Source: a virus. From it: DNA of 64,000 bases. The stretch spans positions 335,797-399,796 of IMG/VR virus record IMGVR_UViG_3300036770_003657; one strand, written 5' to 3'. The notes beneath the pieces were generated by a model. It worked only from the letters and a program-made list of their open reading frames with translations, made no database searches and was not told the DNA's origin. The position numbers and the translations under genes were made by a program. Positions within the stretch are counted from its first letter, which is position 1, and every line of letters begins with the position of its first letter. Shown here one piece after another: positions 2,252 through 52,581 of this stretch.

Positions 2252-2339
2252 TATAGTCACTACTAATACCCATTATTAAAAATGGAAAAAACCATAGCAG
2301 TATAAAATTTTTAACTATTTCATCAAACATTGTAATCAT
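2217..2339 (-). CDS. 40-aa membrane microprotein
   Basis: Its ATG overlaps the TAA of the upstream minus-strand gene (TAATG). The product has a short charged N-terminus, a hydrophobic helix (F-I-L-L-W-F-F-P-F-L-I-M-G-I) and a short polar tail. It runs 35 bases into the end of the convergent plus-strand gene. Translational coupling and composition support it, but the overlap keeps confidence low. Confidence 0.4.
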   Translation of the reverse strand: MITMFDEIVKNFILLWFFPFLIMGISSDYTKPLCRQTTLN

Positions 2340-3880
2340 TATACTGCTCCTTGAGGTTGTGTTGTAGTAATAGGTTGTGGAGCTACTGGTTGTGGAGCTA
2401 TAGGTTGATTTGAAGTTACAGATCCAGGAATTCTAGTGCTTTGACCTTTTGTTAATTTTGGTTTAAGTTGAGGAATACGTCTTTCTAATTCATCTATTAT
2501 GTCTTTTGTAGGAAGTTTTTCAACAATAATAAGTTTCATTGTTGTGTCAATAATCTTATGTAAAATCCTTTCATTATTGATATTCCTTAATTTAGCTAAC
2601 TTTTGAGCCCAAGGAATAAGTTTTTCTACAAAATCGTCACTCTGTATATCTTTTGGCTTCTTAGCAAACTTACCTAATTCTTTGGCACTAACTTCACCGC
2701 CGAATGTTGTCGGCTGTACATAGATTTGTGGATACGCGGTTCTACCAGGATCATTTACCCCAGTCAAATAGATACTGTCTGCATGGAATCTTAATCCTTG
2801 GCTTATTAGATCTTCTGCACTATTATACCAAATTAAATTCCTATCATAAAGGTTGACAAATAGTACACCATCATCATGTTTAAGTGCCATATAGTTGTTA
2901 AAACTGGCCTGTGAATAGGCTTGTTTAGCTGCCCCTAGATCTCCATCTTGTATGGTCAATAAAATTTCTTTTATATTTCTTTTTAATCTAGCAGTATATT
3001 CTTTTCTTTCTGTTTGAGCGTTACCAAATATTTTTTCAACAACACTTTTTAATTTCTGCATAAAAGTACTTTGAATTTCACCAGTAACATTTTGATGAAA
3101 CTCTATAGCCTGTGTAAGACTTAGCCCTGATTTAGTTAATTGAAGTTTAAAACCTTTTCTATTTTTATAAGGTCCAGTACCTCGTACAAAGTCATTTAAA
3201 TCACGAGCAGCAGGATCCCAACCTTCAATTGGCCTAACTTCCTGATCTCCAAAACGAGCTGATGCTTTACTGGATTTTTCCTTGCCAGTTTCAGGATCTA
3301 CAGTGGTGGTCATACTGGCTGTTTTTACTTCAACTTGCCACATCCTACCATTCCATTCTGCTTTAAGGTCACCCTTACCATCATTAGGTTTGTTTATAGT
3401 TTTACTAAAAACATTTAGGGCAAATTCGCCTTTACCATGTCCCAATGTAGCTACATTCATTAGAGTATCCACTAACTCAGTGGTGATTGGGTTAGATCCG
3501 TAAGTATTAAAAACTTCTTCAAAGGAAACAGACTCACCTGAAAATAAAGCGTCTTTGTTTACAATTTTATCCTGTTTCCATAAACTAAACAGTTGATTAC
3601 GTTCTTCAGGAGTGCCATCTATGCTAAGAATATATCTTGTCAGATCTTTTTGTACTGCATTGACTGCAGGGTCATTAATACTTTGTAGGTCCTTTGCAAT
3701 TAAGCCTTTTCTTCCACCAGCATTTACATCACGTAATAAATCCTCAATCTCTCTTAAGGTTTTAATAGTGGCATCATCAGAAGGAAGGATTTTGATTTGG
3801 CTCGCAATCTTCTCCTTCCAATTATCCACAGCATCAGCTGCCATTTCAGCCAATAGTAATCTAAATTCTTTATATCGCAT
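2339..3880 (-). CDS. Probable internal head protein with PD-(D/E)xK nuclease-like motif
   Basis: 513 residues. The first 12 residues (M-R-Y-K-E-F-R-L-L-L-A-E) resemble a T4 capsid-targeting peptide ending in the prohead-protease consensus (L/I)-x-E. In the middle are G-K-G-E (Glu152), G-D-L-K (Asp171) and W-Q-V-E-V-K-T (Glu184-x-Lys186), which have the spacing of a PD-(D/E)xK nuclease core. The rest is helical and ends in a P/Q/T-rich tail. The reading is a protein packaged with the DNA and possibly nucleolytic. It follows the bilin reductase gene by 10 bases, so it is probably co-transcribed with it. Active-site assignment is by eye. Confidence 0.55.
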   Translation of the reverse strand: MRYKEFRLLLAEMAADAVDNWKEKIASQIKILPSDDATIKTLREIEDLLRDVNAGGRKGLIAKDLQSINDPAVNAVQKDLTRYILSIDGTPEERNQLFSLWKQDKIVNKDALFSGESVSFEEVFNTYGSNPITTELVDTLMNVATLGHGKGEFALNVFSKTINKPNDGKGDLKAEWNGRMWQVEVKTASMTTTVDPETGKEKSSKASARFGDQEVRPIEGWDPAARDLNDFVRGTGPYKNRKGFKLQLTKSGLSLTQAIEFHQNVTGEIQSTFMQKLKSVVEKIFGNAQTERKEYTARLKRNIKEILLTIQDGDLGAAKQAYSQASFNNYMALKHDDGVLFVNLYDRNLIWYNSAEDLISQGLRFHADSIYLTGVNDPGRTAYPQIYVQPTTFGGEVSAKELGKFAKKPKDIQSDDFVEKLIPWAQKLAKLRNINNERILHKIIDTTMKLIIVEKLPTKDIIDELERRIPQLKPKLTKGQSTRIPGSVTSNQPIAPQPVAPQPITTTQPQGAV

Positions 3881-3890
3881 AGTTAAGTAT

Positions 3891-4574
3891 TTACCTTAAC
3901 TCTGGAAACAAACACTCCTGTATGAATATACGTACATCTTCCTCATTCAATCCCAAACTGGTCATTACCTTAGGCGTATGTGGGTTCATCTTTTGGTTCT
4001 GTGCGTAAAAATTCTGTTGTTCGCTAGTATTAAGTACAGTGTTATTAGTTTCACCTACTGTGCTTAAGTAATGATCTACACCCTTGCGAGCCATTTCAAA
4101 GATTTGATCTAGTTCGTGTTCGTCCTGTACATTACCTGCTGCCACCATGCTCTTGCTGAATATACGGGTAGCCCAATCTGGTAGTGCTCTTTCCTTACGC
4201 CATTCCATCTTACTTACTTCGTTGGCAAACCATTCACACATAGGATGATTAGCATCCCCTGTAGGACTATAATCATAAAAACAGCCGGTAATTTTATTCT
4301 TACCGGCTATAACATCAAATCCAAAGATTGGGGCAGGGTTGTGTGTATGTGGAAATACGCAACAATGCATCATCCACAATCCCTTTTTCTCTCTAGCATC
4401 TACAACATCTACGTGAGCCCTACGATATGCTTCACTGGTCCAAACACGGTTTACCCATCCTGGTTGATTAAACCTATCCATACCTGGTTCAAATGCTTCA
4501 GTACCAGTGCGTTCAAAACTTTGCTCTAATAGGTGTTGTACATTAATTAGAGCGTCCCAAACTTTACTCTCCAT
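3891..4574 (-). CDS. pcyX: Ferredoxin-dependent bilin reductase (PcyX/PcyA type)
   Basis: 227 residues. Hallmarks of the family are M-M-H-C-C-V-F-P (His70), F-G-F-D-V-I-A-G-K-N-K-I-T-G (Asp87) and the nearby D-Y-S-P. His70 and Asp87 align with the catalytic His88 and Asp105 of cyanobacterial PcyA. E-R-A-L-P-D-W and a C-terminal L-F-P-E close the usual pattern. These enzymes reduce biliverdin IXalpha with electrons from ferredoxin. PcyX forms from uncultured marine phages make phycoerythrobilin (known family fact). The start overlaps the end of the heme oxygenase gene by 11 bases, so the two are translationally coupled. The subfamily name is inferred from phage context. No ferredoxin gene is seen in this window, so host ferredoxin is presumably used. 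Confidence 0.85.
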   Translation of the reverse strand: MESKVWDALINVQHLLEQSFERTGTEAFEPGMDRFNQPGWVNRVWTSEAYRRAHVDVVDAREKKGLWMMHCCVFPHTHNPAPIFGFDVIAGKNKITGCFYDYSPTGDANHPMCEWFANEVSKMEWRKERALPDWATRIFSKSMVAAGNVQDEHELDQIFEMARKGVDHYLSTVGETNNTVLNTSEQQNFYAQNQKMNPHTPKVMTSLGLNEEDVRIFIQECLFPELR

Positions 4575-5112
4575 TGTACAAATCCCTCATCATCTTAATG
4601 GCCCATTCAAAGGCCACACGAGCCTCATCACCTAACTCATCTGTGAGTTCGGCTCTGATTGCTACTTTAAGTTGATCAGGATTAGTAAACTCATAGAACT
4701 TGCCACTGCTAATGTGTGCTACTTGTTTCTTAATAATTAAGCCACCATTTAGGTCACCCATATGACGACAATACAAATGTGCCTTAAGTAAATGTCTACG
4801 TTCTAGGTCATTGGTTAGCTGGACCAAATAGTCATGATAGGCTAGGGTCTGTGGTAGCCAAACAAACTTGTGCTCTGGCCCAGCTAATTCCATAAAATCT
4901 TGATATATTGCTGGTAAACGCTCAATACCCTGTATGTTAGCAAAGTGTCCTAACATACGATTACCAAATTCAATTGGTCCGTATATGGGCAATAATTGGT
5001 ATAGATAATTTGCGTAATCTTCCTTACTAATTTTACCACTTAGTAATAGTTTAGCAAATTTAGTTGTTTCCGCCTCGTGATGTAAATCCTTAGTAATCTC
5101 TCTTAAACTCAT
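4564..5112 (-). CDS. ho1: Heme oxygenase
   Basis: 182 residues, all helical. The N-terminal D-L-H-H-E-A-E fits the H-x-x-A-E proximal heme ligand motif (His11). The distal-helix signature appears as Y-C-R-H-M-G-D-L-N-G-G (compare R-Y-L-G-D-L-S-G-G). The enzyme opens heme to biliverdin, CO and Fe2+ using reduced ferredoxin. Its ATG overlaps the clpS stop (ATGA) and its end overlaps the bilin reductase start, so clpS, ho and pcyX form one tight operon. Length is slightly short for the family but complete. Confidence 0.9.
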   Translation of the reverse strand: MSLREITKDLHHEAETTKFAKLLLSGKISKEDYANYLYQLLPIYGPIEFGNRMLGHFANIQGIERLPAIYQDFMELAGPEHKFVWLPQTLAYHDYLVQLTNDLERRHLLKAHLYCRHMGDLNGGLIIKKQVAHISSGKFYEFTNPDQLKVAIRAELTDELGDEARVAFEWAIKMMRDLYNGE

Positions 5113-39509: not shown

Positions 39510-40390
39510 AGTCCAGCTAATTTTTTAAGGTTGATAACATCCTGGCTTTGATTAGTATTGGCCTTTGGCTGTATGTTAGATACTCTGCGGGCTAGTGCGA
39601 CTATATCATTGGTCTCGCCGACAAATTTTTTGTCCTGTGTAATCTGTTGCATGGCCTTACGCATCATGGCCTTCTCTCTATTCTTATCGTTATAGCCTGT
39701 AGGCACATAATCTTCACGAGGTAAGCCCTGTTGGAATTTAGCAAAGGCTCTTGGATCAACTCCCATACGTTGAGCACTGGCATCTGTGCCCATTAAATGT
39801 GCTATATCATCTGGATCAGCTGCTTGTCCAACCATTTTAGTAATTCCCTTTTGACCGTTATTAAAAGGAGTATCTGTAGATATAGATGCGTTTTTGTTTA
39901 CTCTATAAGTACCACCGGTGTGTACAGGTTGTCCTTGAGCATTTTTAGTCATTGACATATCTATAGGCCCGGCTTGATATCTATCCGTAGTGTTACCTGC
40001 CTTATCAGTCCTTCTACTCAATCCTGCTATTGGTGTAGTTGCTTGGGGCTCATCAAATATTTCCTCTGTTGCTGCTTGATCCTGTGGTTTAGGATTAGGA
40101 GTTAATGGGCTTCCTGGCTGACTGGGAGCATCCGTTCCACCAGCCATGTTTACTTCACTGCCTGGCTGTAATTGCGGCATTGGTGATGGTGCATTTGGAT
40201 CAGCTGTAGGGTTTACCATTACGCCTTGTGGCCCTTGCTGTATAGTGTTAGGATTTTTACTAGGATCAAATGTAGTCTGTGTTTGGGGATTATTAGGATC
40301 CTGTAGTGTTACCTTATTAGGCGTAGCCTGTATTACCTTCATCTTAGTCATTTGCTGAGGTTGTTGCCCAGTTACTTCAAATATTTTCAT
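39506..40390 (-). CDS. P/Q/T-rich protein with capsid-targeting-like N-terminus
   Basis: 294 residues: M-K-I-F-E-V-T-G start, then about 120 residues of low-complexity P, Q, N, T, and a folded C-terminal half (G-G-T-Y-R-V-N-K-N-A, R-V-S-N-I-Q-P-K). Likely an internal or scaffold-associated protein. It overlaps the nucleotidyltransferase gene. Confidence 0.6.
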   Translation of the reverse strand: MKIFEVTGQQPQQMTKMKVIQATPNKVTLQDPNNPQTQTTFDPSKNPNTIQQGPQGVMVNPTADPNAPSPMPQLQPGSEVNMAGGTDAPSQPGSPLTPNPKPQDQAATEEIFDEPQATTPIAGLSRRTDKAGNTTDRYQAGPIDMSMTKNAQGQPVHTGGTYRVNKNASISTDTPFNNGQKGITKMVGQAADPDDIAHLMGTDASAQRMGVDPRAFAKFQQGLPREDYVPTGYNDKNREKAMMRKAMQQITQDKKFVGETNDIVALARRVSNIQPKANTNQSQDVINLKKLAGL

Positions 40391-41087
40391 CGTTCATCTC
40401 CAGGCTTAAACCGCCAGCCTCTAATTTACTTATATGATTTCGTAGCTTTTCAATAAGACCTTTGGCACGTAATACCTTAAATGCTACATTCTCTACACCT
40501 AACTCACCTGTTTGGCTCAGTCCATGTTGACGCATCTTTCTAATATCATCATAGACATTTTGTACAGCATTGATATCTTTACTCTTTAGGGCCAGTTTAA
40601 TTTTACCCTTAAAATGTTTGTACTTTTCACCGACCAGTTGTCTATCTAAATTATCATGCACTGCTTGTGGAGTCTTAAGCCAACGATCATCTAGTATGCT
40701 ATATATTCCTGCACTAGTATGAGGCTGTTCGCTGTCCTGTACATATACTTCTACATCAATACCTTTGACTTGAATATCATAGGTAAAATTGTACAAGTTC
40801 TTCTTAGCATCAAATAGCTGCTTATATACTTCCTTGCGCTCGGGGTCGATGTCAACGATTAGGTGTAGGTCAATATCACTAGCACGACTATAAGTATACC
40901 CTGCATTACTGCCGCTTATGGTTATATCTTGTAAGTTAAGAGGTTTAATATCTATAAAGTTAATAAAGTTACGAGCTATTTTTAGTAATAGATATCTTAC
41001 TTCTGGCTTGAGTTTACCTTTACGCCATAGTTTACTGTTAAGTCTATTATGAAATATGACTGCTGTACTGACCAGGTCTTCGTGCAT
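40377..41087 (-). CDS. Predicted nucleotidyltransferase-fold protein
   Basis: 236 residues. I-S-G-S-N-A-G-Y-T-Y-S-R-A-S-D-I-D-L-H-L-I-V-D is a pol-beta-type motif (G-S, D-x-D), with a later D-V-E-V-Y for the third acid. The C-terminus is helical. Related phage proteins exist; the substrate (nucleotide transfer to RNA, protein or other) is unknown. GATAAATA ends 4 bases ahead of the ATG. Confidence 0.75.
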   Translation of the reverse strand: MHEDLVSTAVIFHNRLNSKLWRKGKLKPEVRYLLLKIARNFINFIDIKPLNLQDITISGSNAGYTYSRASDIDLHLIVDIDPERKEVYKQLFDAKKNLYNFTYDIQVKGIDVEVYVQDSEQPHTSAGIYSILDDRWLKTPQAVHDNLDRQLVGEKYKHFKGKIKLALKSKDINAVQNVYDDIRKMRQHGLSQTGELGVENVAFKVLRAKGLIEKLRNHISKLEAGGLSLEMNDENI

Positions 41088-44763: not shown

Positions 44764-45461
44764 CTTAGTTTGGCCAAACCTAATAGCATTAGCATTTTAA
44801 GATATACATAGCCTATGTCTATTTCCCACCACTTTTCGCTGAGCTTGACACTGCTGGGCTTGTTATGGTGGTTGTTGTGGAGTTCCTCTCCTCCGATAAT
44901 GAATCCAAACGGTATAATATTTCTACTGCGATCAGAAGTTGAACTATTGCGATAGCCCCAATAATGCCCAATACCATTGATAACGCCCGCTGCCCAAAAT
45001 GGTATCCACGCCATCTGAATAAGCCAAATAAGAATACCCCAGCCATTAAAACATAAAGTGTTGATGATAAGAAGTGATAGTATGCCATGACAAGTATATT
45101 TACTATAAATGTTGCGTTCTACCCAATCATCAGGAGTACCTACTCCATATTGATCTATCATTGTACGATCTCTACTGGCTATATCATATAACCAAGCACC
45201 TTTAAACAGTACATTGCATATACCGTATACATGTGGACTATGTGGATCATTAAACTGATCTGTGAACCTATGATGCTTACGATGTATGGCTACCCATTCC
45301 TTAGTATTCATACCTGTTGTAAACCATAACCAAAAACGCATAAAGTGACTGACCACAGGATTGAACACTATACCCTTATGTGCCTGTCCACGATGTAAAA
45401 ATAATGTTACACATACTATAGTAATATGTGTAGCCGTTAAAAGATATAATAGTTCAATCAT
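44760..45461 (-). CDS. Fatty-acid (acyl) desaturase
   Basis: 233 residues, membrane helices with all three His boxes: H-R-G-Q-A-H (23-28), H-R-K-H-H (60-64) and H-N-N-H-H near the C-terminus. The diiron enzyme puts a double bond in acyl chains using O2 and an electron donor. Shorter than cellular homologues but complete. It overlaps genes on both sides, so it is co-translated with the metalloprotease/HD gene. Confidence 0.92.
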   Translation of the reverse strand: MIELLYLLTATHITIVCVTLFLHRGQAHKGIVFNPVVSHFMRFWLWFTTGMNTKEWVAIHRKHHRFTDQFNDPHSPHVYGICNVLFKGAWLYDIASRDRTMIDQYGVGTPDDWVERNIYSKYTCHGILSLLIINTLCFNGWGILIWLIQMAWIPFWAAGVINGIGHYWGYRNSSTSDRSRNIIPFGFIIGGEELHNNHHNKPSSVKLSEKWWEIDIGYVYLKMLMLLGLAKLR

Positions 45462-46351
45462 AAGTGGTGTTTCACTCCAAGCTTGGCACCTAACATGTTC
45501 AAACTCATTAGGTATTTCTTTTGACTACTAGCAGCACGCTCTGGATCCCAACTGCTTTTATCTCCAGTATAGTTTTCATAATTGTCAGCATACTTAACCA
45601 TCATGGCTAATGGATTACCACTGTTAATTATAGCTTCTATATTTTGTCTATAGGTTAGGCTCTTGTTCTTTGTTAGTAGGCCCACTGCCTGTATGACCTG
45701 TGGTGTAAATTCTAACTTGGCCAGCTCATCTATACCAATATGTGTATCTTCTACCACATCGTGTAGGAAGGCTGTTTTCACTGCATCACTGTTAAACCTA
45801 CTGCCAAATATCTTCTTACCAGTTAAGGCCACTGCTCTAGGATGACGCCAATATGGTAGACTACCATATAGTTGATCACCGTGTGCTTGTTTAATAAACT
45901 TAAGAGTTTGTGCTACATTGAGTTCGTTAAGAGGTTCTATACTTTCAGCAAGTAGAGCAGCATGTTGAAATAGCTCTGGGTTCATCTTACCCCATAGTCT
46001 CATTATTACAGCAGCCTTAGCATTAGCTTCATTCTCATGTTCACTACCATCCTCTCCACTATCTGGAGTGAGCACTCCCATACTATCTTGTTTATAGTGG
46101 ACTAGTTCATGTGCTAGAGTTCTAAGTACATCCATAATGTGTCTATTTCCCACATTAAGCTCTATACGTCCACCCATATAGCCACCAAAGCTACGACGAC
46201 TACTGGCCAGTTTGGGATCACTATATAATTTAATCTTAGGTAGGTCGTTCAATTTTATGTGTTTACTAGCGAACCTTAAAAAGTTTTGAATAATAGACTT
46301 GGTTTCATCATCTACCCTAGGTGGTTTTTCTTTTAGCTCTTTAAAGTTCAT
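45458..46351 (-). CDS. Metalloprotease fused to SpoT-type HD (ppGpp hydrolase-like) domain
   Basis: 297 residues. Residues 1-130: zinc protease with H-E-L-V-H (81-85) and downstream E-H-E-N-E-A. Residues 145-297: HD fold of RelA/SpoT/Mesh1 hydrolases, with Y-W-R-H-P-R-A-V-A (His170), F-L-H-D-V-V-E-D (197-202) and V-K-Y-A-D-N (Asp256). The linker L-L-A-E-S and L-N-E-L could be cut by a T4-type prohead protease. The N-terminus M-N-F-K-E-L-K-E looks like a capsid-targeting peptide. The fusion might be injected to lower (p)ppGpp (inference). Confidence 0.78.
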   Translation of the reverse strand: MNFKELKEKPPRVDDETKSIIQNFLRFASKHIKLNDLPKIKLYSDPKLASSRRSFGGYMGGRIELNVGNRHIMDVLRTLAHELVHYKQDSMGVLTPDSGEDGSEHENEANAKAAVIMRLWGKMNPELFQHAALLAESIEPLNELNVAQTLKFIKQAHGDQLYGSLPYWRHPRAVALTGKKIFGSRFNSDAVKTAFLHDVVEDTHIGIDELAKLEFTPQVIQAVGLLTKNKSLTYRQNIEAIINSGNPLAMMVKYADNYENYTGDKSSWDPERAASSQKKYLMSLNMLGAKLGVKHHL

Positions 46352-46548
46352 ATGAATCTTTTATTCTTATTTTGTTCTATAAATGCCTGGTGCTTTATTG
46401 CTCTACAATTATCACAATCACATTCTTTACACTCACATTCTACACATTGTTCTTTACTACAATGATGTGCGTGTCCGCAAGTATGACATGGAGTAAACAA
46501 TCTCTGAGTATTTCCATCTAATGCATCTAATATAGTAAACATGCTCAT
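46348..46548 (-). CDS. Cys-rich, metallothionein-like small protein
   Basis: 66 residues from the ATG at 46548 (GGAG 6 bases upstream). C-H-T-C-G-H-A-H-H-C then C-V-E-C-E-C-K-E-C-D-C-D-N-C: ten Cys and several His packed in about 35 residues. It probably binds Zn or other metal. Overlaps the metalloprotease gene by 4 bases. Confidence 0.7.
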   Translation of the reverse strand: MSMFTILDALDGNTQRLFTPCHTCGHAHHCSKEQCVECECKECDCDNCRAIKHQAFIEQNKNKRFI

Positions 46549-46550
46549 TT

Positions 46551-46751
46551 TTAACTCCAAGGCCTCCCTTGTTCTAATCCTCCTATATTAGGATTATCTA
46601 CTATATCATTACCATCGTATTGTGTGGGCAATTTAGTTATATCATAAGTGCTAGGTCTGTCTGTTGCTGCTCTTTTTATTGCTGCTAGATCTAGTTTAGC
46701 TTTTTGACGTAGCTCTTTGGTAGCTAGTGTACTGATTCCATTTTGCGCCAT
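46551..46751 (-). CDS. Hypothetical 66-aa protein
   Basis: The ATG at 46751 has GGAG 5 bases upstream. L-R-Q-K-A-K-L-D-L-A-A-I-K-R helix then a Pro/Asp-rich tail ending G-R-P-W-S. No family is recognised. It heads the minus-strand operon that includes the desaturase. Confidence 0.6.
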   Translation of the reverse strand: MAQNGISTLATKELRQKAKLDLAAIKRAATDRPSTYDITKLPTQYDGNDIVDNPNIGGLEQGRPWS

Positions 46752-46768: not shown

Positions 46769-46784
46769 TATTTATCAATAAATA
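46769..46784. promoter_or_regulatory. Back-to-back late-type promoters
   Basis: GATAAATA on the minus strand (46769-46776) directly abuts AATAAATA on the plus strand (46777-46784). They point to the 66-aa gene and to hemA respectively. Confidence 0.45.
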
Positions 46785-46792
46785 CTAGTACT

Positions 46793-47989
46793 ATGATAGA
46801 TAAAATCCACTTCAAACGCTTAATCGGCGACTTAAAAGATTCGGGCAAATATCGTGTGTTCAACAATATAGTCCGTGAAAAAGGTAAATTTCCAAACTCA
46901 ATATGGTACGGTCCATACGCAATCAAGAACATCGTTAACTGGTGCTCTAACGATTACCTCGGAATGGGTCAGCACAAAGTTGTCATAGACGCAATGCACA
47001 CTGCACTAGATCAAACTGGTTCAGGGTCAGGTGGTACTAGAAACATCGGCGGGACCAGTACTTATCACGTTGCTTTGGAAACAGAACTAGCATTCTTACA
47101 TCGTAAGGATCGTGCTTTATTATTCAGCAGTGCTTATGTGGCTAATGAATGGAGTCTTATAGCACTGAGTAAAATTGTACCTAATATACACTTTGTGAGC
47201 GATAGTAAAAATCACAATAGTCTAATAGTAGGTATCAGTCATAGTAAGGCTCCGAAAACCGTGTTCACACACAACGATATGGAAAACCTTGAAAGCATAC
47301 TTAAAGCAGTTAGAGATGCTGGAGAGACTCCTTGCGTAGTGTTTGAAAGCGTATACAGTATGGATGGCGATGTTAGCACGATGACTGAAATATGTGACCT
47401 TGCTGACAAATACGAAGCCATTACCTATATTGATGAAGTACACGCAGTAGGCCTATATGGTGAACGTGGTGCAGGTAAGTTGGAAGAACTTAAACTACAA
47501 CATCGTGTGGACATTGTAAATGGTACATTAGGTAAAGCATATGGTGTACAAGGCGGATATATAGCGGCAGATAGTGAAGTGGTAGATGCTATACGCAGTG
47601 TAAGTCATGGCTTTATCTTTACTACAAGTATGAGCCCTGTTAGTTGTGCTGGTGCATTATCAGCAGTTAAATTTCTTAAAGAACATAATGAAATAAGAGA
47701 AAAGCATCAGGAGCGTGCCAATAGACTAAAAACATTATTGAAACAAAATGATCTTCCACTTATGAATACTAGTACACATATTGTGCCAGTGCTTGTAGGC
47801 AATGCTGTTCGTGCTAAGGCAATGAGCGATGCCCTACTAGAAGATCATAACATATATGTTCAACCTATAAATTATCCTACAGTGGCAGTAGGCACAGAGA
47901 GACTACGTTTTGCTCCAACTCCATATCATGATGATGGTATGATGGAGAAGTTAATTGTGGGATTGAAGGATATTTTTAGTCGGATTTAA
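46793..47989 (+). CDS. hemA: 5-aminolevulinate synthase (Shemin pathway)
   Basis: 398 residues, alpha-oxoamine synthase fold. [15 protein letters not shown] (His142), [12 protein letters not shown] (Asp214, His217) and the PLP lysine Lys248 in T-L-G-K-A-Y-G, which has the same number as in Rhodobacter ALAS. Makes 5-aminolevulinate from glycine and succinyl-CoA, the first committed step of tetrapyrrole synthesis. Full length and intact. It stands alone on the plus strand between minus-strand genes, with its start 8 bases after AATAAATA. Confidence 0.93.
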
Positions 47990-51227: not shown

Positions 51228-52049
51228 TTATCCTATATCACTTATATTAGAAATAAGAGCTTGAGCAAAGGCTATTCTTTGATTTTTATGTAATCCTGCA
51301 CTTCTTTCATAATGTTTATCAAAAATAATTGCTGCTTCCTCTGCTGTCCTAGCTGTACTTAGCATTGATGCTGCTTTCTTTTCAGTATTTTCTAATTCCC
51401 ATTGTACAAATGCTAATTGCTCGCCTAAACTACTCTGTCTAATATCCTTACCAAATGCTTTTCTAAATAGCTGTTGCCTATCTGGATGCCACTGAGCAAT
51501 CCCGTATGCTCTACCTTTATCACCTACAGCATCAATTTGTAAATCCCTTCCGCTCTCTGCCTGTAGATTACCCACTATACCTGCTGCTTGTTCTGGACTC
51601 CATCCTTTACTGATAAAATATTTTACTGCATCTTTAGTATTTTTTGCAGAGTCTAATGATGCCACACTGGCCTTGGCACGTGCTCTAGTATCTTTATCTA
51701 TTCTACTATTTGGACCTTGTTTTACTTGGCTAACAACCTTTCCTGGTTTGACATCTGCTTCAGTACTTTTGACAAAACTAATCTTTTGATCTTTTAATTT
51801 TTTATTAATTAAGTCAATCATGGCCTTGTCTGGACTACCATCTTGAGTAAGAGCATTATCCTTTTCAAATTGTTTTATAGCATTATTAGTTTCTGGACCC
51901 CTGAACCCATCTACTCCATGTATAGGCAACTTATATCCTAGGGCCAATAATGCCTTTTGTAAATCTGCCACTGCTGGACCGCGTGTTCCTCTTGGTACCA
52001 TAATTTGTGAAGTTGATTGTACAAAATCAACAAACTCTTTTAACCTCAT
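51228..52049 (-). CDS. Peptidoglycan-binding and phage tail lysozyme protein
   Basis: 273 residues. N-terminal M-R-L-K-E-F-V-D-F (capsid- or tail-type lead), peptidoglycan-binding domain (R-G-P-A-V-A-D-L-Q-K-A-L, V-D-G-x-x-G-P-E-T), linker, then a tail-lysozyme domain: W-S-P-E-Q-A-A-G-I-V-G-N-L-Q-A-E-S-G with the probable catalytic Glu and Y-G-I-A-Q-W-H. Cuts the cell wall, probably for DNA entry. Confidence 0.88.
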   Translation of the reverse strand: MRLKEFVDFVQSTSQIMVPRGTRGPAVADLQKALLALGYKLPIHGVDGFRGPETNNAIKQFEKDNALTQDGSPDKAMIDLINKKLKDQKISFVKSTEADVKPGKVVSQVKQGPNSRIDKDTRARAKASVASLDSAKNTKDAVKYFISKGWSPEQAAGIVGNLQAESGRDLQIDAVGDKGRAYGIAQWHPDRQQLFRKAFGKDIRQSSLGEQLAFVQWELENTEKKAASMLSTARTAEEAAIIFDKHYERSAGLHKNQRIAFAQALISNISDIG

Positions 52050-52288
52050 TCCCCATTACCTTTCCAAACTGGCAATGGACCTCCATAATTGCCACCTTTG
52101 ACTTTTTTACCTTTAATGCTTTTACGCTTTTTGTTTATGGTAAATTGTTTTTCCGTATCCCTAGCACGAAACCCTTGGCTCTTACAGCTACTTAGTTGGC
52201 TGGCACCTAACTCACTATCAGGCTTAGTACTCTTACATAAGGTTCTGCTGGCTTTACCACTTTCTGTAATAATTTCATCTATTTTCAT
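52046..52288 (-). CDS. Basic protein with capsid-targeting peptide
   Basis: 80 residues from the ATG at 52288. M-K-I-D-E-I-I-T-E ends in I-T-E, the form cut by T4-type prohead protease. Mature part is Lys/Ser/Cys-rich and very basic (K-K-R-K-S-I-K-G-K-K-V-K-G-G). Likely an internal head protein that binds DNA. Confidence 0.7.
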   Translation of the reverse strand: MKIDEIITESGKASRTLCKSTKPDSELGASQLSSCKSQGFRARDTEKQFTINKKRKSIKGKKVKGGNYGGPLPVWKGNGE

Positions 52289-52581
52289 TCGCAATTCCAA
52301 CGGCGTAAAGCTTTGTTAATTGGGCTATTTGGATCTCTTTTAGTTTTAGCACTAGCATGGGCTTTTTTCATACCTCCCATTCTAGCACAAAAACTACTTC
52401 TACGTTTATCACTTTTACTACCTTTCTTAATCTTACTTGGCTTTGTTGTCACTGCTGTTTTTAACTTACTACCTGGATTTTCCCTACGGTACGCTTTTAC
52501 AGCCTTATTACTCATACCATCAGTATTGTCATTCTTATTGACTTTTTGCCAATCTTCGTTTAAGATTTCGTAGATTTTCAT
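52285..52581 (-). CDS. DUF6321-like basic protein with capsid-targeting peptide
   Basis: 98 residues. M-K-I-Y-E-I-L-N-E (L-N-E end), then A-V-K-A-Y-R-R-E-N-P-G-S, K-G-S-K-S-D-K-R-R-S-S-F-C-A-R-M and a R-R-W-N-C end. Strongly basic. The conserved family is known from marine phages. The two internal-protein genes overlap by 4 bases. Confidence 0.72.
   Translation of the reverse strand: MKIYEILNEDWQKVNKNDNTDGMSNKAVKAYRRENPGSKLKTAVTTKPSKIKKGSKSDKRRSSFCARMGGMKKAHASAKTKRDPNSPINKALRRWNCE

Follow-up and report, generated by a model that had tools for sequence, protein, structure and literature searches.

A 297-aa protein encoded by a T4-like jumbo phage is probably head cargo that the phage's S77 prohead protease splits, giving a small alarmone hydrolase and a zincin metallopeptidase, both injected with the DNA. 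Its gene lies in the window (the whole 64,000-nt stretch analysed), which is the last 64 kb of a viral record of 399,796 bases (~400 kb). Elsewhere in the record T4-type head genes follow one another (portal, core protein, S77 prohead protease, scaffold, major capsid protein), of which the protease alone was identified by profile search (PF03420, E 3.5e-26), the others being named from reading their sequences. The following reconstruction covers packaging, cutting, delivery, substrate and benefit. The protein would be synthesized late, and a short N-terminal peptide would help place it in the prohead core, where the prohead protease, the counterpart of T4 gp21, would cut after E8 and E136 and probably also after E143. 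Freed in this way, the two enzymes would be injected along with the DNA. Once inside the new host, the hydrolase may strip the 3'-pyrophosphate either from alarmones such as (p)ppGpp and/or (p)ppApp or from the ends of tRNA pyrophosphorylated by toxSAS-type defence enzymes, and would do so before phage gene expression.

Table 1. Features of the gene and its operon (window positions; a slash marks a putative cut).
Feature	Positions	Strand	Basis or remark
Whole gene, 297 aa: cargo-type polyprotein, metallopeptidase (MPTase) module + alarmone-hydrolase module	45458..46351	-	single open frame
Residues 1-8, MNFKELKE, disordered N-terminal peptide ending LKE/K	46328..46351	-	placed like a T4 capsid targeting sequence
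Zincin-like metallopeptidase module, residues 9-136	45944..46327	-	conservation, model, fold matches
Zinc motif HELVH, residues 81-85; invariant E106 downstream	46097..46111	-	
LAE (134-136)/S, canonical [LI]xE/[AGS] site at module junction	45944..45952	-	junction common to relatives with other downstream modules
LNE (141-143)/L, second site, directly before HD module	45923..45931	-	[LIV]xE conserved in 23/24 contexts
HD domain, small-alarmone-hydrolase (RSH hydrolase/Mesh1) type, residues 144-297	45461..45922	-	conservation, profile, fold
HD motif H197-D198 (with H170, E201, D202, D256, N260)	45758..45763	-	
Cys-rich 70-aa ORF, stop overlapping target-gene start	46348..46560	-	
First operon gene, 66 aa, MAQNGISTLATKELRQ...	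46551..46751	-	operon containing target gene
Late-promoter-like octamer GATAAATA	46769..46776	-	ahead of small operon with target gene

An earlier note, made from the sequence alone, had claimed that one protein here joins an HExxH protease to an HD domain of RelA/SpoT/Mesh1 type. This is borne out: the ORF has exactly the limits it gave, both folds could be modelled, and the plus strand over the same interval contains many stops. The HD half was predicted by AlphaFold2 as a folded domain (pLDDT 91.8). It matched an alarmone hydrolase among PDB profiles at E 2.3e-11 and 7smg in Foldseek at 7.5e-7, with VIA Z scores of 19.4 for 7smg, a (p)ppApp hydrolase, 19.1 for the P. aeruginosa SAH 6yvc, and 15.5 for SpoT. 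The comparison with Mesh1 proposed in the earlier note gave 17.8, above the 8-12 of other HD-family enzymes, and the metal site that it had named as decisive (H170 in an HP pair, H197-D198, D256) is present. These residues, together with E201-D202 and N260, are invariant across 22 diverse copies of the module; HDVVEDT follows the HDxxED pattern, and N260 lies four residues past D256. By modelled fold and catalytic set, residues 144-297 are classed as a small alarmone hydrolase. They share fold, metal and catalytic residues, and size with the known small alarmone hydrolases, Mesh1, and RSH hydrolases (7smg, 6yvc, 3nr1; phage PaSpo SSU5), but are fused and flanked by conserved protease sites, and their activity is a prediction. 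The same predicted activity is found in large phages as jumbo-phage HD-alarmone phosphodiesterases (PMC7824862), for which, in the part of that account available, neither fusion nor virion delivery is described. The synthetase domain PF04607 is absent from both protein and genome. In cellular genomes the HD module was not found apart from one weak match.

Within packaging and cutting as proposed above, a compatible variant is that the hydrolase acts mainly on (p)ppApp, toxSAS-pyrophosphorylated tRNA, or NADPH and not on (p)ppGpp; this is a real possibility, if somewhat short of even. The top structural match points this way, as does a Q-x-Y-G loop replacing the basic loop that Rel and Lmo0812 carry. 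The SSU5 alarmone hydrolase undoes tRNA pyrophosphorylation by FaRel2 (PMC11559606), and NADPH is cleaved by Mesh1, according to the portion of the source available (PMC9765508). On the other hand, sequence and fold cannot separate these substrates, and Rel, SpoT, and Mesh1 are also strong matches.

The protease half was likewise modelled as a folded domain (pLDDT 86.5), with an HExxH helix and a downstream Glu helix on what is predicted to be a zincin fold. Every one of the 43 copies of the module compared keeps both HExxH and the downstream Glu. Fold matches were to Wss1 (Z 8.9), SPRTN (8.7), and abylysin, with ArdC lower, all at moderate scores, and sequence-family (Pfam) matches were weak. 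The module has at least 543 relatives, and in the 80 of these that were fetched it occurs free or within chains, the longest of 2082 aa. Should processing be the work of the prohead protease, the likeliest role for the zincin is cutting a host protein.

The fusion itself had been put forward as undescribed. It is real, but less special than supposed: shuffled cargo modules form a large family, and this is one of their pairings. The junction LLAE/S falls at the same point where the protease module of close relatives ends and other sequences start, which rules out a frameshift artefact as the origin of the fusion. Only three loci pair both modules, in differing order, and no independent copy of the exact adjacent MPTase-HD order was found among the relatives; nor was a phage isolate found that combines both halves, carries a polyprotein with this HD module, or contains a relative of the DNA flanking the gene. 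The HD module precedes the MPTase in L051, shares one 1129-aa chain with a GH19 enzyme and an MPTase in L001, and stands alone behind a short leader in L026 and L057. Elsewhere it lies beside ART-PolyVal (PF18760, E 2.9e-11; L003, L004), a Cu/Zn SOD (L007), or nucleotidyltransferases (L013, L015, L021). With each module found in such varied company, the fusion is one outcome of a system that shuffles modules. The two were modelled separately, a joint alignment having misaligned the rows with a single module.

The T4 internal proteins IPI-III and Alt (an ADP-ribosyltransferase) offer a parallel in their short N-terminal peptide ending in hydrophobic-x-E, the S77 protease in the genome, and the enzyme cargo. 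They differ in that here one chain holds several enzymes separated by sites, the 297-aa protein departs from the strict T4 pattern, and the T4 set includes no alarmone hydrolase cargo. The N-termini of IPII and IPIII read MKTYQEFIAE/A, and the 10 N-terminal residues of IPIII are enough for packaging (PMC9026906). MNFKELKE resembles this only loosely; it does not match a strict pattern based on IPII and IPIII, having neither K/R at position 2 nor a hydrophobic residue before x-E. Orthologous leaders in relatives are MKFLELTE, MKLRELLSE, MRAREFLSE, and MKAREILTE, and the last two, from distant relatives, have a T4-like shape.

Virion proteins of the cultured cyanophage S-CREM2, also T4-like, have been identified by mass spectrometry (PMC10665884). 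Among those detected are a SAM hydrolase (MKDFDSFLEE), a kinase (VKRFDAFLTE), an NMNAT (MKNFSSFLTE), and a 78-aa protein (MKDLHSFLTE). The MKxFxxFLTE-type N-termini of the three enzymes were noticed in the present analysis; the parts of the S-CREM2 paper available report no targeting sequence. A first targeting pattern, which required F to follow an acidic residue, did not work for S-CREM2 and was replaced by the one based on T4 internal proteins. The latter matched 5 of the 28 non-structural proteins detected in virions, none of the 24 structural proteins, and none of the 165 that went undetected (p 5e-5, an optimistic value because the pattern was written after the S-CREM2 N-termini had been seen and the first version had failed); one of the five, MKQIIIHE, looks like a chance match. 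With a plain test for an early [ILV]xE the counts were 8/28 and 20/134 (p 0.08). Across the window's genome the T4-derived pattern matched 5 ORFs against 0.9 expected. One of these encodes a 752-aa polyprotein that includes a GNAT domain as well as an ART-like stretch.

Two S-CREM2 virion proteins are homologous to genes in the window, gp156 to 40377-41087 on the minus strand (35% identity, 5e-42) and gp137 to 52285-52581, also minus (59%, 8e-31), and gp156 is homologous to the first module of large polyproteins as well. No alarmone hydrolase is among the S-CREM2 virion enzymes, and their authors, in the text available, caution that soluble proteins may contaminate virion preparations (PMC10665884). 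By analogy with these systems, virion delivery of the 297-aa protein is plausible.

Several other genes deserve mention here. The product of 40377-41087 is nucleotidyltransferase-like. That of 52285-52581 is a 98-aa basic protein, MKIYEILNE/DWQKVNK..., with a targeting-like leader fused to a module that forms the C-terminal end of longer proteins, and also of S-CREM2 gp137, and has matches in 497 phage records, for the most part from cyanophages and pelagiphages. Targeting-like N-termini are also seen in a 513-aa product of no family (2339-3880, minus; MRYKEFRLLLAE/MA...) and in one beginning MRLKEFVDF... (51228-52049, minus), which has peptidoglycan-binding and phage lysozyme2 domains. The 752-aa polyprotein (L043; G000 285181-287439, minus) comprises DUF6934, the ART-like stretch, GNAT, and a basic tail with LxE-like sites between them, and has no relative among phage isolates.

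T4 gp21 cleaves after L/I-X-E (PMC9026906). The 297-aa protein has just five [ILV]xE tripeptides, of which those ending at E8, E136, and E143 are in disordered or low-confidence stretches of the models and those ending at E201 and E209 inside the HD fold. The residue after E143 (P1') is Leu, where A, G, S, or N is usual. Ahead of the HD module the middle residue of the motif may be D, N, T, K, E, V, F, or A, and the lone exception to [ILV]xE at this position is a separate free-standing hydrolase in L059, a phage contig (1932-2387) in which a cargo-type and a free-standing alarmone hydrolase occur together. After the module, [ILV]xE is found in 21 of 23 contexts. CoeS_P1 was the only free-standing cultured-phage hydrolase checked to have such a tripeptide at its very N-terminus. 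In L051 one module end reads LQE/TATAGATTAGNVST.

The motif is also concentrated at module edges generally. In 83 polyproteins, [ILV]xE occurred at about twice expectation there and [ILV]xE[AGSTN] at about three times (61 vs 18 and 65 vs 20.5 expected, z 10; z 8-10 over both forms of the motif), the edges being fuzzy since they come from BLAST. As the relatives are not independent of one another, duplicate contexts were removed and control motifs run alongside. The controls ([ILV]xD, [ILV]xK, [ILV]xQ, Ex[ILV], [AGST]xE, and [FYWM]xE) were flat. The earlier suggestion that L-x-E sites in the linker could serve a prohead protease is thus supported by their placement in linkers, this enrichment, and the S77 gene in the genome. 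When 18 records of relatives were searched for an S77 gene, just 5 had a detectable one; the rest are mostly fragments. Elsewhere in the genome, a 68-aa protein, MRLRELYE/TASGGATSAGNVVA... (L040; G000 220296-220502, minus), contains a repeat of the stretch around the likely capsid-protein cut site of this phage, KYLAE/TASAGTTSAGNVATL.

It is considerably less probable that this is an ordinary bifunctional protein, made during infection and left unpackaged, with both enzymes acting in the cytoplasm and the L-x-E sites incidental. Stand-alone alarmone hydrolases without this architecture are common in phages, so the enzyme can also serve when made after entry, and L059 has a free one besides its cargo-type one. 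The neighbors of the gene are metabolic (desaturase, ALA synthase), and in cyanophage S-SRM01 a relative of the protease module without a leader peptide adjoins MazG amid replication genes. Such a protein would, however, leave unexplained the position-specific motif before the HD module and the general enrichment at module edges, the head-targeting-like N-termini in relatives, and the detection of related cargo modules in S-CREM2 virions.

Improbable, though published in outline, is a polyvalent protein processed by its own MPTase instead of the prohead protease, with the hydrolase released perhaps after injection. Self-processing by the metallopeptidase domain has been proposed for phage P1 DdrB and N4-type proteins (PMC5512222), MPTase is the hub domain of polyvalent proteins, and its HExxH and downstream Glu are invariant here. 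Polyvalent proteins are also multidomain, frequently have an MPTase partner, and are predicted to be injected, and ART-PolyVal stands beside the same HD module. The joints, by contrast, have the motif known for S77 proteases. Most HD contexts have no MPTase in the same protein and keep the same sites, and edge enrichment persists in proteins without an MPTase module (z 3.6-5.6), which makes a protease acting in trans the simpler cutter. Iyer et al. (2017; PMC5512222) report RelA/SpoT synthetase domains; the terms "HD domain" and "phosphohydrolase" were not found in their text. That the HD module is catalytically dead or structural and serves head assembly is hardly credible with every metal and catalytic position invariant in diverse copies, even if there are phage internal proteins for which no enzymatic role is known.

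Taken one by one, phage alarmone hydrolases, T4 internal proteins, and polyvalent proteins all have precedents. In the literature searched, which left most subscription journals and preprints outside, neither alarmone-hydrolase cargo nor punctuation of polyproteins by prohead-protease sites was described. It is an even call whether many environmental T4-like phages make shuffled cargo polyproteins with prohead-protease joints, cut in the head into injected enzymes, with an alarmone hydrolase as recurring cargo. If they do, suppression of the stringent response or of toxSAS would be a virion-delivered act, and an injected hydrolase would work ahead of any phage gene expression. The injected proteins of T4-like phages are known for few cultured phages, and cut-site punctuation combined with the N-terminal pattern would give a sequence rule for predicting injected enzymes from metagenomes.

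PADLOC gave no match, no RNA family was found close to the gene, and neither MazG nor a RelA synthetase was found in the whole record. Translational coupling of the target gene to the Cys-rich ORF is likely, since the stop of the latter overlaps its start. The octamer ahead of the operon weakly suggests late expression. One late-promoter candidate, TATAAATA, showed no enrichment within the window. Another, ATAAATA, lies within 80 nt upstream of 47 of the record's 358 ORFs on the coding strand and of 16 on the other, mostly 20-40 nt ahead of the start, and is possibly the late promoter of this phage; a reversed-string control gave no information, since the motif reads the same backwards. The window also has a bilin/heme set, at 3891-5112 (minus) and 46793-47989 (plus), with matches to ferredoxin-dependent bilin reductase (1e-15), heme oxygenase (5e-21), and 5-aminolevulinate synthase (TIGR01821, 1e-167).
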